Origin: Hydrogenophaga sp.
Lineage (GTDB): Bacteria; Pseudomonadota; Gammaproteobacteria; Burkholderiales; Burkholderiaceae_C
Length of the DNA stretch: 10,724 nucleotides
Direction of reading: 5' to 3'
Assembly (NCBI GenBank): GCA_011390855.1
Contig: JAABRN010000226.1
Location: 1 to 10,724, forward strand
Of the stretch, positions 5,510 to 10,724 are shown in pieces (position 1 is the first letter of the stretch; each line of letters opens with the position of its first letter). The translations under genes and the position numbers were made by a program. Below the pieces are notes generated by a model. That model was given only the letters and a program-made list of their open reading frames with translations, was not told the origin of the DNA and did no database searches.

Positions 5510-7366
5510 TCAGCCGTACATGGCTTCAATCTGCGGGGAATACTTTTTCTCGACCAGCTTGCGCTTGAGCTTCATGGTGGGCGTGAGTTCTTCGTCTTCG
5601 GCGGAGAGCTGCGTGTCGAGCAGGAAAAACTTCTTGATCTGTTCCACGCGGGCAAACTTCTTGTTCACGCGGTCGATCTCTTCCTGAATGAGCTGCTGCA
5701 CCTCGGGCGAGCGGGTCAGGCTCGCGTAGTTGGAAAACGGCACGTCGTTGTCCTGCGCAAATTTCTCCACGTTCTCCTGGTCGATCATGATGATCACGGT
5801 GAGGTAGGCCCGCTTGTCGCCAATCACCACCGCGTCGGTCACGTAGGGCGAGAACTTCAATTCGTTCTCCAGCTCACTGGGCGTGATGTTCTTGCCCCCT
5901 GCGGTGATGATGATGTCTTTCATGCGGTCGGTGATGCGGAAAAACCCTTCCTCATCGACCATGCCCACATCACCCGTGTGCAACCAGCCATCGGCGTCGA
6001 TGGTCTCGGCCGTCTTCTCAGGCAGGTTCAGGTAGCCCATGAACACGTTGGGTCCGCGCACCAGAATCTCGCCCGTGGCTGGGTCCAGCTTCACTTCGTT
6101 GTAGCTGGCTGCCGGGCCAATGCTGCCGGGCTTGATGCGTTCGGCCGGGATGCCGGTAGAGGCGCCGCAGGTCTCGGTCATGCCCCACACCTCCAGCATG
6201 GGCACACCGAGCGCCATGTACCAGCGCACCAGCTCGGGTGAAATGGGCGCTGCGCCGGTCACCAGAAAGCGAGCCTTGTGAATGCCGATGAGCTTGCGCA
6301 CATTGTTGAGCACCAGCATGCGCGCCACGTGAAACTGCAGCTTGAGGGAGCCGGGCACGGCTTGCTGGGCCAATACCAGGTCGGCTACGCGTTGGCCCAC
6401 ACCGATGGACCATCCGTACGCAGCCTGCTGCAGCTTGCCGGATTCCTTGAGCGCGATCATCACGCCCGAATAGAACTTCTCCCACACGCGTGGCACGGCA
6501 GTGAACACCGTGGGCGCGATCTCGCGCACGTTCTCCGGCACGGTCTCGGGGTTTTCGACGAAGTTGAGTTTGGCGCCGGTGTAGAGCGAGAAGTACTCGC
6601 CCCCCATGCGCTCTGCGATGTGGCACAGCGGCAGAAAACACATGCATTCATCGCGGTCGTCGCGTGAGATCAGCGTGTTGTAGCCGCGCACGGTGTAGAT
6701 CAGGCCTTTGTGGCTGTGCATGGCGCCCTTGGGCTTGCCCGTGGTGCCCGAGGTGTAGACCAGGATGGCCAGGTCGTCTGGCTGGCAGGCGGCCACGCGC
6801 TCTTCAATCATCTGCGGGTGCTGGCGGGCGTGTTCACGGCCCATTTCGCGCAGCACGTCCAGACCGATCACCTGCGGGTCGTCCAGTTCGCGCAGGCCTT
6901 CCATGTCGAACACCACGATCTTGCGCAGCTTGGGCAGGTGTTCCCGCACCACCAGCGCCTTGTCGAGCTGCTCGTCGTCTTCCACAAACAGCACGGTGGT
7001 ACTCGAGTCTTCACACAGGTACTGCACCTGCTCGGAAGCATCGGTGGGATAGATGCCGTTGGACACACCGCCCGCACTCAGCACCGCCAGGTCGCACAGC
7101 ACCCATTCGATGTTGGTGTTCGAGAGAATCGACGCGGTTTCCTTCGGACCAAAGCCCAGCGCCATCAACCCATGAGCGATCTCGCGCACCGCTTCGGCTG
7201 TCTGGTTCCAGGTCCAGGTGCGCCAGATGCCAAAGTCCTTCTGGCGCATCCACACATTCGGCCCGCGCGCCTTCGCCGCGTTCCAGAACAGGGCCGGAAT
7301 GGTCTCGCCCTGCATCACGATGTCGGGCTGCGGCTGGATGTGGGAGAGGTCCCAGAGTGTGCTCAT
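5510..7366 (-). CDS. AMP-forming long-chain-type acyl-CoA synthetase in the transporter operon
   Basis: This 618-residue cytoplasmic enzyme of the ANL superfamily makes an acyl-CoA from a carboxylic acid, ATP and CoA. Motifs in order: the phosphate-binding loop YTSGTTGKPKG (204-214), VPRVWEK (291-297) and GAAPISPEL (371-379), typical of long-chain synthetases, WGMTET (394-399), WLHTGDVG (461-468), the hinge region ITDRMKDIIITAGGKNITP (478-496), and LTPTMKLKRK (594-603) with the expected catalytic lysine. Length and motifs fit the Faa1/FadD15-like group, whose real substrates are often aromatic or unusual acids. The ATG at 7366 was chosen because the protein begins MSTLWDLSHI there; the longer frame from 7438 would read through the repeat spacer. 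The ribosome site is weak, which fits translation coupled to upstream genes. It lies between livF and livK, implying uptake followed by activation. Substrate unknown. Confidence 0.92.
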   Translation of the reverse strand: MSTLWDLSHIQPQPDIVMQGETIPALFWNAAKARGPNVWMRQKDFGIWRTWTWNQTAEAVREIAHGLMALGFGPKETASILSNTNIEWVLCDLAVLSAGGVSNGIYPTDASEQVQYLCEDSSTTVLFVEDDEQLDKALVVREHLPKLRKIVVFDMEGLRELDDPQVIGLDVLREMGREHARQHPQMIEERVAACQPDDLAILVYTSGTTGKPKGAMHSHKGLIYTVRGYNTLISRDDRDECMCFLPLCHIAERMGGEYFSLYTGAKLNFVENPETVPENVREIAPTVFTAVPRVWEKFYSGVMIALKESGKLQQAAYGWSIGVGQRVADLVLAQQAVPGSLKLQFHVARMLVLNNVRKLIGIHKARFLVTGAAPISPELVRWYMALGVPMLEVWGMTETCGASTGIPAERIKPGSIGPAASYNEVKLDPATGEILVRGPNVFMGYLNLPEKTAETIDADGWLHTGDVGMVDEEGFFRITDRMKDIIITAGGKNITPSELENELKFSPYVTDAVVIGDKRAYLTVIIMIDQENVEKFAQDNDVPFSNYASLTRSPEVQQLIQEEIDRVNKKFARVEQIKKFFLLDTQLSAEDEELTPTMKLKRKLVEKKYSPQIEAMYG

Positions 7367-7548
7367 TTCAATGATCCATGAAAGTGGCGACGATCCCACA
7401 ACGCATCCGGAGCAAGATGCCCCCAAAATCCAGGGCACCCGTGGAACCGGCTTTGCCGGGCCATGGGGTGCGTCACCCTCCCAGCGCCGAAGGCGCGGAC
7501 TGGAGAGGGGGAAGCCGCGAAGCGGCGCATGGGGTGTCGCATCCTCAT
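7363..7548 (-). other. Bridging ORF from livF stop to synthetase start (61 codons)
   Basis: The frame starts at an ATG overlapping the livF stop (ATGA) and ends at a TGA overlapping the synthetase start (ATGA). The peptide begins MRMRHPMRRFAAS and ends HFHGSLK; it is Arg/His/Pro-rich and resembles no known protein. It may serve only to carry ribosomes across the repeat insertion. Nothing shows directly that it is translated. Confidence 0.3.
7367..7543 (+). repeat. Palindromic repeat insertion in the livF-synthetase gap (J1)
   Basis: This spacer contains three short hairpins with 5-bp GC stems and 3-nt loops: CCGGC-TTT-GCCGG (7447-7459), GCGCC-GAA-GGCGC (7484-7496) and GCCGC-GAA-GCGGC (7514-7526). 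GGAACCGGCTTTGCCGGGCC (7443-7462) recurs with one base changed in the J3 and J4 gaps. CATGGGGTG is repeated directly at 7462-7470 and 7528-7536. The segment is bounded by ATGAG at the livF stop (7548-7544, minus strand) and ATGAG at the synthetase start (7366-7362), 182 bp apart. The part from 7367 to about 7442 shows no recognised repeat. Confidence 0.75.
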
Positions 7549-8333
7549 CTCCAGTTTTTCTTTTTCTTCCAGCGCCGGTCCGCCCGCACGCCTTCTTCCT
7601 TCATGCCCAGGTAGAACTCCTTGATGTCGTCCTTCTCGCGCAGCCGGGCACAGGTGTCTTCCATCACGATACGGCCGTTCTCCAGCACATAGCCGTAGTC
7701 GGACGCATTGAGCGCCATGTTGGCGTTCTGCTCCACCAGCAGAAGGGTGGTGCCGCGCTCGCGGTTGATGCGCACCACGATCTCGAAAATCTCTTTCGTC
7801 AGTTTGGGACTCAGGCCCAGGCTGGGTTCGTCGAGCAGGATCAGGTCTGGGTTGGCCATGAGTGCACGGCTGATGGCCAGCATCTGCTGTTGTCCGCCAG
7901 AAAGCAGTCCTGCGTCTTGCGCGGCGCGCTCGCGCAGGATGGGGAAATAGCCGAACACCGCTTCGATGTCGCGCGCCACGCCGTCGCGGTCCTTGCGGGT
8001 GTAGGCGCCCATGAGCAGGTTGTCGCGCACGCTCAGCAATGGAAACACCTCGCGCCCCTCGGGCACATGGCTCAGGCCCTGCTGCACGATGAAGGCCGGG
8101 TCCTGCGCCGTGATGGGCTCGCCCTTGAACTCGACGCTGCCCTTGCGCGGGTCGATGATGCCGCTGATGGTTTTCAGGATGGTGGTCTTGCCAGCGCCGT
8201 TGGAGCCCAGCACGGTGGCGATTTCACCGCGTCGCACCTGAAGGCTCACGCCTCGAATGGCCTTGATCGGGCCATAGGCACTCTCCACGTTGAGCAGCTT
8301 GAGCACAGGTGCGTCAGAGGTGGCTACGCTCAT
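7545..8333 (-). CDS. livF: ABC importer ATP-binding protein LivF
   Basis: This 262-residue protein is one of the two ATPases that power the importer at the cytoplasmic face of LivHM. Visible motifs: Walker A GSNGAGKT (43-50), HVPEGREVFP (89-98) in the Q-loop region typical of LivF, signature LSGGQQQ (144-150), Walker B LILLDEP (164-170), and LLLVEQNANMAL (197-208), where LivF proteins carry Gln/Asn in place of the usual switch histidine. The ATG at 8333 (MSVATSDAPVL) is preceded by GGGAG at 10-nt spacing; the longer GTG frame from 8396 reads into the repeat spacer and was rejected. The C-terminus carries a basic tail (ADRRWKKKKNWR). Its stop is TGA in an ATGA context directly abutting repeat J1. 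Confidence 0.93.
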   Translation of the reverse strand: MSVATSDAPVLKLLNVESAYGPIKAIRGVSLQVRRGEIATVLGSNGAGKTTILKTISGIIDPRKGSVEFKGEPITAQDPAFIVQQGLSHVPEGREVFPLLSVRDNLLMGAYTRKDRDGVARDIEAVFGYFPILRERAAQDAGLLSGGQQQMLAISRALMANPDLILLDEPSLGLSPKLTKEIFEIVVRINRERGTTLLLVEQNANMALNASDYGYVLENGRIVMEDTCARLREKDDIKEFYLGMKEEGVRADRRWKKKKNWR

Positions 8334-8455
8334 GATGAAAGGACTCCCGCCTGAGGCGTGTGTAAGTGCGAGCGATCCGGCGCCGGGCCGCCCCAAGCCG
8401 GATCAGCCCCCTCGGGGGGCAGCGACCCGCGCAGCGGTGGAGCGTGGGGGCTCAT
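8330..8455 (-). other. Bridging ORF from livG stop to livF start (41 codons)
   Basis: The frame opens at an ATG overlapping the livG stop (ATGA) and closes at a TGA overlapping the livF start (ATGA). AGAAGG at the end of livG (8468-8463) lies 7 nt before this ATG, a plausible ribosome site. The peptide starts MSPHAPPLRGSLPPEG and is Pro/Gly-rich, with no recognisable family. A coupling role is inferred; translation is unproven. Confidence 0.35.
8335..8449 (+). repeat. Palindromic repeat insertion in the livG-livF gap (J2)
   Basis: This GC-rich spacer has the modules CGCC-TGA-GGCG (8348-8358), a CCGGCGCCGGGCC variant of the shared word (8377-8389) lacking the triloop, and CCCCC-TC-GGGGG (8407-8418). 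From about 8420 to the livG stop it loosely matches the same side of repeat J3 (GCGACCCGCGCAG against GCGGCCACACGCAG), and both copies end at the stop codon of the upstream gene. CATGAGC occurs at both borders (minus strand 8456-8450 and 8334-8328), exactly 122 bp apart, the same distance as in J4. Confidence 0.7.
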
Positions 8456-9279
8456 GCCACCACCTTCTGGTTTTCTCGGCGCAGGTTGGACACGTCGTCC
8501 ACTGAGCCCAGGTAGGCCTCGATCACGCCCGGGTGCGCCTGCACCTCGGCGGGTGTGCCGGTGGCCAGCTCTTCGCCCATGCTCATGGCCAGCACCCGAT
8601 CCGACACCTTGGACACCAGCGACATGTCGTGTTCCACCATCAGCACCGTCACACCGAGTTCGTTCTTGATGTCGGTGATCCAGAACGCCATGTCTTCGGT
8701 TTCTTCCACGTTCAGGCCAGACGACGGTTCGTCCAGCAGCAGCAGCTTGGGTTCGGTGCACAGCGCCCGTGCCAGCTCCACCACCTTGCGAACGCCATAC
8801 GGCAGACCGGCCACCATCGATTCTCGGTGGTGCTGCAGGTCGAGCAGTTCAATCACATGCTCCACCTTTTCCCGCGCCTCAATTTCTGCCGCGCGTGTCC
8901 TGGCGGTGAAAAAAAGCTCGCTCCACAGCCCGGTTTTGCGGTGCGTGTGCCGCCCGATCAACAGGTTTTGCAAAACGGTGGCGTGTTCGAACAGCTCGAT
9001 GTTTTGAAACGTGCGCGCGATGCCCAGCGACGCGATTCTGTGCGGCGGCTGTTCGGTGAGCTTGAGCATGCCGTCGGGGCCAGCGAAATCGATGTGGCCT
9101 GTGGTGGGCGTGTAGATGCGGCTGATCAGGTTGAACACCGTGGTCTTGCCCGCACCGTTGGGCCCGATCAGGGTGAACACCTCGCCGCGCTTCACATCAA
9201 AGCTGACGTTGTTGACCGCCAGCACGCCGCCAAAGCGCACGCTGAGGCTGTGGGCAGACAGAAGGATGTCGTCGGTCAT
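8452..9279 (-). CDS. livG: ABC importer ATP-binding protein LivG
   Basis: This 275-residue protein is the second ATPase of the importer, partner of LivF. Walker A is GPNGAGKT (39-46), the Q-loop is ARTFQNIELF (88-97, Gln92), Walker B is LLLLDEPSSGL (179-189) and the switch histidine is His217 in MVEHDM. The signature is LPYGVRKVVELARAL (159-173), a departure from LSGGQ that is normal for LivG. The insertion after the Q-loop (FTARTRAAEIEAREK) is also typical of LivG. The ATG at 9279 begins MTDDILLSAH; no strong ribosome site precedes it. The stop is ATGA, directly at the edge of repeat J2. Confidence 0.94.
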   Translation of the reverse strand: MTDDILLSAHSLSVRFGGVLAVNNVSFDVKRGEVFTLIGPNGAGKTTVFNLISRIYTPTTGHIDFAGPDGMLKLTEQPPHRIASLGIARTFQNIELFEHATVLQNLLIGRHTHRKTGLWSELFFTARTRAAEIEAREKVEHVIELLDLQHHRESMVAGLPYGVRKVVELARALCTEPKLLLLDEPSSGLNVEETEDMAFWITDIKNELGVTVLMVEHDMSLVSKVSDRVLAMSMGEELATGTPAEVQAHPGVIEAYLGSVDDVSNLRRENQKVVA

Positions 9280-9417
9280 GAATGGCTTCTGGTTGATGAC
9301 ACGTTACGAACGAAGGGAAGCGGACCAGAGACACCGAGGAACCGGCTTCGCCGGGCCTCTGGTGTCGCCCCCTTGAGGGGGGATGCGGCCACACGCAGTG
9401 AGCAAGCAACGGGGGTG
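9280..9417 (+). repeat. Palindromic repeat insertion in the livM-livG gap (J3)
   Basis: GGAACCGGCTTCGCCGGGCC (9338-9357) is the shared 20-base word, with hairpin CCGGC-TTC-GCCGG (9342-9354). Thirteen bases further lies a second palindrome, CCCCCTTGAGGGGG (9368-9381). GACACC (9330-9335) and GGTGTC (9361-9366) flank the first hairpin as an outer inverted repeat. The borders carry ATGACC at the livM stop (minus strand 9423-9418) and at the livG start (9279-9274), 144 bp apart. Unlike the other three gaps, the frame opened by the first ATG is closed by a TAA at 9306-9304 and does not reach the livG start as a bridging ORF. Confidence 0.75.
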
Positions 9418-9419
9418 GG

Positions 9420-10496
9420 TCATTTCAATCGGTCGGATTTCTGGAACGATTTCTGCCGCTTGAACATGCCCTTGCGGTAGAACGGGAACAGCTGGAAGTA
9501 GGTGCGGATCTTGAGCCAGCGGCCATACAGCCCCATGGGTTCAAACAGCACGATGGCCACCAGCACCACGCCATACACCACGCCCTTGAGACCGGTGGCA
9601 TCGGCAATCACGGCAGGCAGAAAATCCTTGCCGATGGAGATCAGCTGCGGCATCACGATGATGAAGATTGCCCCCAGGAATGCGCCATGGATCGAGCCCA
9701 GGCCGCCGATCACGATCATCAGCAGCAGGTCCACCGACTGCAGCAGACTGAACTGGTCCGGCGACAGAAACTGGATCTGGTGCGCATACAGAGCACCGCC
9801 AATACCGGCCAGCGCGGCCGAGAGCGCAAAACTCATCGTCTTGTAGCGCGCCAGATGAATGCCCATGCTCTGCGCTGAAATCTCGGAATCGCGAATGGCC
9901 ACAAAGGCGCGCCCGGTGGATGAGCGCAGCAGGTTCACGATGCCCAGTGTGGATAGCACCGTGACCAGCAGGCAGAGGAAGTAGAACTCGGTGGGTGTGT
10001 CCAGCGTCCAGCCGAACAGGGCTGGCTGATTGACCATCATGCCGGCGTTGCCACCGGTCACGCTTTCCCAGCGCGCCATGCCTTCTTCCACGATGAAGCC
10101 GAACGCCAGTGTCGCCATGCCCAGGTAGATGCCTTTCACCCGCAAGGCCGGCAAACCCACCACCATGCCCACGGCCGCCGACAGCAAGCCCGCGCAGGCC
10201 AGCGCCAAGGGGAACGGGAAGCCTGCATTGACCATGATGGCCTGCGTGTACGCACCCACGCCCAGGAAGGCCGCATGGCCCAGAGAGAACAAACCGGTGA
10301 AGCCGGCCAGCAACATCAGGCCCAGGCCCACGATGGCGTAGATCAGCACAAACGTGAACTGTGCCAGCCAGTACTCCTGCACCAGCCAGGGTGCCGCCAC
10401 CATGAACAGGCCCAGCAGCCCATACCAGAACACATGGCCCCCATGCTTGGCCAGCCGGATGTCCTGGTTGTAGTCGGTCTTGAAAAGGAATCTCAT
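9420..10496 (-). CDS. livM: ABC importer permease LivM
   Basis: This 358-residue inner-membrane protein pairs with LivH to form the transport channel. Many hydrophobic segments are seen (about 24-38, 44-66, 74-90, 96-115, 122-138, 172-190, 222-238, 254-284 and 304-320). The family stretch LMLLAGFTGLFSLGHAAFLGVGAYT (60-84) and the cytoplasmic loop STGRAFVAIRDSEISAQSMGI (193-213), which contacts the ATPase, are clear. A basic C-terminal tail (RKGMFKRQKSFQKSDRLK) follows the last helix. The ATG at 10496 lies 2 nt after a run of seven G residues contributed by repeat J4; this may act as an improvised ribosome site. The stop is ATGA at the border of repeat J3. Confidence 0.94.
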   Translation of the reverse strand: MRFLFKTDYNQDIRLAKHGGHVFWYGLLGLFMVAAPWLVQEYWLAQFTFVLIYAIVGLGLMLLAGFTGLFSLGHAAFLGVGAYTQAIMVNAGFPFPLALACAGLLSAAVGMVVGLPALRVKGIYLGMATLAFGFIVEEGMARWESVTGGNAGMMVNQPALFGWTLDTPTEFYFLCLLVTVLSTLGIVNLLRSSTGRAFVAIRDSEISAQSMGIHLARYKTMSFALSAALAGIGGALYAHQIQFLSPDQFSLLQSVDLLLMIVIGGLGSIHGAFLGAIFIIVMPQLISIGKDFLPAVIADATGLKGVVYGVVLVAIVLFEPMGLYGRWLKIRTYFQLFPFYRKGMFKRQKSFQKSDRLK

Positions 10497-10618
10497 AGCC
10501 CCCCCGCAGCGCCTGAGGCGCTACCCCCCCAGGGGGGCGCCACGAGCGGCCCGGCGAAGCCGGTTCCGCCGTGGCCCTGGAAGTGACCTCGGCTCAAGTG
10601 GCTGTTCGGCTTCCTCAT
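10493..10618 (-). other. Bridging ORF from livH stop to livM start (41 codons)
   Basis: An ATG overlapping the livH stop (GTATGA) is preceded by AAGGA (10630-10626) at 7-nt spacing, a good ribosome site inside the end of livH. The frame runs through repeat J4 and ends at a TGA overlapping the livM ATG. The peptide begins MRKPNSHLSRG and ends SGAAGGL, with the repeat read as GGTGFAGPLVAPPWGG. It is probably a ribosome carrier if it is translated at all. Confidence 0.4.
10498..10613 (-). repeat. Palindromic repeat insertion in the livH-livM gap (J4)
   Basis: The shared 20-base word lies here on the minus strand (10548-10567), inverted relative to J1 and J3, with hairpin CCGGC-GAA-GCCGG (10551-10563 read on plus). 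A C-run/G-run palindrome (10524-10537) and AGCGCC-TGA-GGCGCT (10508-10522) follow. In its own orientation the order hairpin, 13 bases, C/G palindrome is the same as in J3. TATGAG occurs at both borders (minus strand 10619-10614 and 10497-10492), exactly 122 bp apart. Confidence 0.78.
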
Positions 10619-10724
10619 ACCTTTTTCCTTAGTTTCTCGCCGAAGAGGCCATTGGGCTTGAGCACCAGCATGATCAGCACCACGATGTAGGGCGCAATAT
10701 CCTTGAAGCCCTCGGGCAGGTAGA
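10615..10724 (-). CDS. livH: ABC importer permease LivH, 3' end only
   Basis: The last 35 codons run off the right edge: YLPEGFKDIAPYIVV...KPNGLFGEKLRKKV then TGA at 10617-10615. A final hydrophobic helix followed by the PNGLFG motif and a basic end is typical of the C-terminus of LivH permeases. The position just upstream of livM on the same strand supports this. LivH and LivM would form the membrane channel together. The start, promoter and most of the gene lie outside the window. Confidence 0.85.
   Translation of the reverse strand, partial: YLPEGFKDIAPYIVVLIMLVLKPNGLFGEKLRKKV

Follow-up and report, generated by a model that had tools for sequence, protein, structure and literature searches.

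Four gaps of 118, 140, 118 and 178 nucleotides (nt; from stop end to start) separate the genes of a liv operon and an adjoining synthetase gene on the minus strand of a Hydrogenophaga sp. contig (JAABRN010000226.1, of which the whole stretch of 10,724 nt analysed here is called the window). They are filled with repeat DNA, each is bordered by ATGA on both sides, and the question they raise is how a tight operon has come to hold them. It is likely, in our judgement, that the gaps are mostly small, translationally coupled open reading frames (ORFs) of repeat DNA. Such an ORF starts at the first ATGA and ends at the second, a feature absent from the reading given in an earlier note on this DNA. 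Judging from the sequence, ribosomes could run from gene to gene through a micro-ORF at three of the four gaps.

When the borders were re-read on the minus strand, the duplicated ATGA stop/start sequence that the earlier note had pointed out was found at four of four gaps, with the strings and spacings as claimed. The livH/livM gap has TATGAG at both borders, 122 nt from copy to copy (A of ATGA at 10618 and 10496); the livM/livG gap has ATGACC twice at 144 nt (9423 and 9279), the livG/livF gap CATGAGC twice at 122 nt (8455 and 8333), and the livF/synthetase gap ATGAG twice at 182 nt (7548 and 7366). The two proposed ribosome-site strings are likewise in place at 8468-8463 and 10630-10626. At the synthetase-livK gap, the internal contrast of the earlier note, the synthetase stop is CTGA and the 54-bp gap does not appear among the window repeats listed (the best 20 of 39 direct families and 25 of 28 inverted pairs). 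We have also surveyed the co-directional gaps of 40-300 bp in G058 (1.89 Mb, with 1674 genes called by a codon-usage script), the genome of locus L006. This locus, from a Hydrogenophaga metagenome-assembled genome, is sister to the window and the nearest named locus in the tree, with 91% identity over the liv genes. Because only 10 of the 439 repeat-free gaps in G058 carry ATGA at both borders, chance does not account for four out of four in a single operon; the corresponding counts are 7/29 for gaps with one to four repeat partners and 8/95 for those with at least five. The genome-wide excess of matching ATGA borders that had been expected at repeat-containing gaps was not borne out for the many-partner class, the joint count of 8/95 being not above the 10.6 given by the product of the margins.

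Reading from the first ATGA, the frame in the window stays open for 41, 39, 41 and 61 codons in the livH/livM, livM/livG, livG/livF and livF/synthetase gaps, respectively, and in three of the four the frame is closed by the TGA within the second ATGA:

10493..10618, minus strand: bridge ORF 1, 41 codons, from the livH stop overlap (10618) to the livM start overlap (10496)
9304..9423, minus strand: incomplete bridge ORF 2, 39 codons, its ATG overlapping the livM stop and its TAA 27 nt before the livG start
8330..8455, minus strand: bridge ORF 3, 41 codons, from the livG stop overlap to the livF start overlap
7363..7548, minus strand: bridge ORF 4, 61 codons, from the livF stop overlap to the synthetase start overlap

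The same arrangement recurs in relatives. Eighty named operon loci were read by tblastn, and the junctions were readable in 80 (livH/livM), 78 (livM/livG), 77 (livG/livF) and 68 (livF/synthetase) of them; 20, 16, 10 and 26 of these, respectively, were filled, the 16 at livM/livG including two in-frame fusions. A gap was counted as bridged when its first in-frame stop fell within -12 to +9 nt of the downstream start, and the window copies L001 and L086 and identical rows were left out of the counts. Among the 80 non-identical filled gaps, 75 had an ATG within the set distance of the upstream stop (five had none), and 58 of these 75 were bridged, compared with 19/150 in the two other frames. Grouped into 29 insert clusters, the mean bridged fraction was 0.73 vs 0.07, with 23 clusters higher, one lower and five ties (permutation p ⩽ 5e-6). 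The cluster that includes bridge ORF 1 was bridged in 10/10 rows. The filled livG/livF gaps vary in length and are nonetheless 1 mod 3 in 12/12 cases, 11 of them bridged, and in L006 two consecutive elements make up a 303-bp double insert at livF/synthetase that reads as one open frame of 101 codons.

The bridge peptides themselves are not conserved and are under weak constraint, with ratios of non-synonymous to synonymous substitution (dN/dS) of ~1.15 at livH/livM and ~0.76 at livG/livF (9 of 10 rows of each main cluster). Since the frame stays open while its residues are free to change, a correctly phased open frame is what is kept. In L016 and L026 the second ATGA of the livM/livG junction is missing and the insert lies in frame with livG, which is another way of keeping this junction; repeat DNA may there lengthen livG at its N-terminal end by ~36 codons.

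The earlier note had explained the borders by a plain safe harbour. In this view, DNA was inserted into ATGA overlaps on four independent occasions, 5-7 bp of target were duplicated each time, and translation of the insert plays no part. The empty junctions of relatives (gaps of ⩽35 nt, all of them overlaps or spacers of ⩽25 nt at the liv junctions) speak for part of this proposal. As it predicted, most named relatives without the repeat have the two genes overlapping in frame by ATGA at livM/livG (57 of 62 empty junctions) and at livG/livF (65/67), where the sister L006 is empty with an ATGA overlap and the window is filled. The prediction failed at livH/livM (1/60) and livF/synthetase (2/42). 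In L063, the sole livH/livM exception, the junction sequence is GTATGAGATTC, as an empty site for the window insert should look, and the remaining 59 empties carry different spacers. Several relatives with an empty livF/synthetase junction, L049, L059 and L044 among them, hold AGATGA, 4 nt and ATGA without any insert, so that the pair can predate the insert and a target duplication is not needed, which contradicts the safe harbour at this junction. Insertion with duplication thus fits two junctions, is unproven for livH/livM and is unneeded for livF/synthetase.

The duplication itself fares worse as a general rule. Where both borders have ATGA, the string common to them is 4 to 8 nt long, and of the ten filled livG/livF gaps that have both ATGAs, five share nothing beyond ATGA. 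Matching bases beyond ATGA are in any case weaker evidence, and the extra CC at livM/livG may belong to the repeat, which usually begins with these bases. Four fresh, independent insertions are also doubtful, since the livH/livM insert of the window clusters with nine other rows. Neither the bridging frame nor the constant phase of the livG/livF gaps is predicted when translation of the insert is irrelevant. Thus, even with empty sites at two liv junctions and those of family C (described below) in its favour, the plain safe harbour is unlikely, and repeat DNA held in frame between overlapping stop/start signals is the better reading than insertion with duplication. A search for fresh insertions in the genome pair G015/G019 was dropped, because the stretch compared is mostly one 114-kb block at 98.5% identity.

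The course of events that we favour would begin with an ancestor that had ATGA overlaps at livM/livG and livG/livF and, at each of the two remaining junctions, either an overlap or a spacer of a few nt. At least two largely dissimilar repeat families (A and B, below) would have supplied the repeats that came to occupy these junctions. An insertion into an ATGA overlap, the chemistry of which we infer, would leave an ATGA on either side; the first would retain the old ribosome site and now start a micro-ORF, and the second would retain the downstream gene's own start. Selection may then act as a filter, copies being kept, or mended by later small changes, if they can be read without interruption in the frame that ends in an overlap with the start of the next gene. 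Ribosomes finishing the upstream gene would pass to the next one via the micro-ORF by termination-reinitiation.

By following bridged gaps in G058 we have reached a further repeat, family C, which speaks for insertion into ATGA overlaps in operons other than this one. Its 65-bp unit begins with ATGAGC, encodes 22 codons, carries GGAGGG, a Shine-Dalgarno-like string that precedes its right GTGA, and ends at this GTGA. One to three units occur, tandem copies included. Within the genus, 49 of 66 genomes have a match, among them that of the window; across the bacterial family the figure is 84 of 200, and some of these matches are partial. In one sample of 30 loci (one each from 30 of the 49 matched genomes), family C joins two long ORFs, an upstream one of ⩾60 and a downstream one of ⩾50 codons, by NTGA overlaps at both ends in 29/30, a figure that is generous because the script picked the best stop and start near the unit. 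The left links are 25 ATGA, 3 GTGA and 2 TTGA, and the right links 20 GTGA, 8 ATGA and 1 TTGA, with one locus lacking a right link. A second sample of 31 places in three genomes gave 25 left links, 22 right links and 20 places with both, or 17/28 with both after removal of the three places common to the first sample. In G058, one family C place lies against the gene direction, one between convergent and one between divergent genes, and the divergent one nonetheless shows both links in the second sample.

Two gene pairs show family C sites with and without the repeat. At a junction that we take to be yeaH/spoVR, L265 is filled and two genomes with 96% identical SpoVR show an empty ATGA overlap; a -4 overlap was found in 7 of 20 readable loci, the start being uncertain for several others. 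The second pair, presumably bufB/bufC-like, has empty overlaps in 9 of 13 readable loci (8 ATGA and 1 GTGA), and two loci hold a family C unit, one of them in the window's genome. The bufC-like search returned distant relatives as well; the loci used from it, L287-L300, have identities of 32-43%, except for the window's L287 (100%) and L288 (66%).

Several results weigh against bridging by repeat DNA as a general rule. In the window itself the livM/livG gap is unbridged, its stop falling 27 nt short, as is that of the sister L006, the insert cluster being bridged in L024, L104, L011, L020, L062, L063 and L065. Genome-wide in G058, bridging from any start was found in 30/93 many-partner gaps (shuffles 24.0, maximum 28), 7/20 few-partner gaps (shuffles 6.6) and 66/399 unique gaps (shuffles 62.0), so that pooled repeats show this architecture weakly. 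Restricted to gaps whose upstream stop is ATGA, the counts are 8/23 vs 11/46 control frames for many-partner gaps and 4/7 vs 2/14 for few-partner gaps. Unique gaps of this kind are bridged as well, in 9/35 cases vs 7/70 control frames, which means that a bridging frame is not peculiar to repeats in this genome. At the junction that we take to be rlmH/maf, a replicate for family B with a -4 overlap in 8/30 loci, bridging is seen in 5/7 filled gaps whose stop is ATGA (control 2/14) and in only 4/13 of those whose stop is GTGA (15/26 control frames), and the bridging rule is therefore not universal. Eleven of the 31 family C places in the second sample are without one link or both. For the liv gaps, dinucleotide shuffles of the interiors that keep frame and ends gave means of 13.6, 10.1, 7.8 and 13.4 and maxima of 18, 13, 11 and 17, compared with 17, 13, 11 and 19 bridged gaps observed; this poor separation arises because GC-rich DNA has few stops. 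A shuffle that preserves frame and ends is a poor null, and the two other frames were used as controls instead. On a quick tree with 73 rows the filled and empty states are scattered, which does not allow gain, loss and exchange between species to be separated everywhere. Finally, the placement of family A behind stop codons, also between convergent genes, may point to a role at 3′ ends.

This last point concerns the repeats themselves, which in the window fall into two families that share at most a 14-nt G/C run:

10524..10580, plus strand: family A in its unusual orientation, livH/livM gap, an inverted copy of 9325-9381 at 84%
9325..9381, plus strand: family A, livM/livG gap, from the window's repeat list and G058 matches
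7429..7479, plus strand: part of family A, livF/synthetase gap, from the window's repeat list and G058 matches
8381..8450, minus strand: family B core (CCCCCACGCTC...), livG/livF gap, from genus-wide matches

Neither family is confined to operon junctions. The livH/livM gap has 57 blast matches in G058, where family A is dispersed; counting copies with a recognised left end, 66 of 67 co-directional ones share one orientation (71/73 matches when the left-end filter is lifted), and a further 26 copies are convergent, 2 divergent and 8 unassigned. In 52 of the 66 copies the left end lies -1 to 13 nt past the stop codon. Such regularity is what would be seen if the repeats were 3′-end elements, RNA structures behind stops that act in termination, processing or stability, with the ATGA borders and open frames mere by-products of GC-rich repeats in a tight operon. 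We consider this improbable, given that the window's livH/livM copy is reversed, that livG/livF inserts are present in both orientations (the L016 insert, which falls in one cluster with that of L026, matches the window's family B copy in reverse), and that the bridging frame is preferred over the two other frames of the same DNA.

Family B has a match in 66/66 genus genomes searched and forms tandem arrays of 83-93 bp in G058, also inside called genes. The arrays at C33 (in a convergent gap), C13 and C2 (in called genes) and C27 (unassigned) have periods of 84, 87, 93 and 90 nt, all multiples of three; others, at C1, C6, C16 and C18, have periods of 83-88 nt. The idea that family B is an ATGA-seeking element was rejected, as few of its 44 match rows in G058 have an ATGA left flank and several lie inside called genes.

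The two weakest alternatives are both very improbable. Promoters inside the repeats could drive the downstream genes, and PMC4213456, in the part available to us, does report promoter activity for the region of mycobacterial interspersed repetitive units (MIRUs) between senX3 and regX3; this would not predict a bridging frame, however, and inserts sit in both orientations at the same junction. Functional small proteins, which the open frames with coupled starts and stops might suggest, hardly fit the dN/dS values above or the different inserts that different species hold at one junction, and a protein search of limited sensitivity found no homologue of the 61-residue product of bridge ORF 4.

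Translationally coupled ORFs of repeat DNA recall the MIRUs, which were reportedly described by Supply et al. in 1997. A review, PMC12548453, describes them as apparently mobile units whose insertion sites are start codons and whose ORF is coupled to the target gene with -4 nt spacing, which likely limits the harm done; PMC2734929 puts the units at 40-100 bp and shows that the rnc-fpg gap is short in species not belonging to the M. tuberculosis complex. The common points are short, apparently mobile repeats at stop/start junctions with a repeat ORF that is coupled to the next gene; overlaps of a small ORF with the genes on either side (three of four window gaps, the 58/75 in relatives, and 29/30 and 20/31 for family C); an empty orthologous junction that is a short gap or an overlap, as at the liv and family C junctions; and the 65-bp units of family C, which fall within the MIRU size range and also form tandem copies. 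The differences are the phylum, the use of two families in the window gaps where MIRUs are one unit, and the occurrence of families A and B outside operon junctions as well. The window would work as in the coupling model, and family C is closest to MIRUs in build; this likeness is one of architecture, and the name MIRU would need sequence kinship.

REPs and the GTAG- and CGTC-tagged repeats are likewise dispersed palindromic repeats near genes, and GTAG REPs are reported to supply the TAG stop codon to flanking ORFs often; coupled micro-ORFs form no part of the REP description in the portions of PMC3733652 available to us. Translational coupling by ATGA, as treated in the accessible part of PMC12548453, is matched by the -4 overlaps that are ancestral at two junctions and stand at both ends of the bridge ORFs, the difference being that here a repeat between the coupled genes would carry the coupling on. 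In the titles and abstract openings searched, mostly outside subscription journals, we found no report of such repeats in Burkholderiales.

There is perhaps an even chance that several unrelated repeat families of Burkholderiaceae have converged on the MIRU life style, colonising the stop/start overlaps of operons and persisting as ribosome-relay ORFs, with at least one of them (family C) specialised for overlaps, so that operons gain DNA and keep their coupling. If so, coupled operons would have a general way of absorbing mobile repeats, which are tolerated when read as a relay ORF, and MIRUs would be one case of a convergent class instead of a mycobacterial oddity. It would also explain why ATGA can persist at both ends of gaps in tight operons and make an environmental genus available for relay tests, with the warning that such gaps may not be untranslated.

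The genes that flank the gaps are as follows, the liv and synthetase names being those of the earlier note and not the outcome of a family-library match:

9420..10496, minus strand: livM-like permease gene, 358 amino acids, with relatives in Comamonadaceae
8452..9279, minus strand: livG-like ATPase gene
7545..8333, minus strand: livF-like ATPase gene
5510..7366, minus strand: acyl-CoA synthetase-like gene

An Rfam search gave no match at gathering scores. Two minor observations were made along the way. L045 comes from a record that bears the title Akkermansia muciniphila, and the tree places its liv operon with Limnohabitans rows; the title is probably wrong. The 114-kb block of the G015/G019 pair lies at ~2.836-2.950 Mb of G015 C1 against G019 C1, is flanked by DNA of 81-84% (left) and 92-98% (right) identity, and is perhaps a recently exchanged island.

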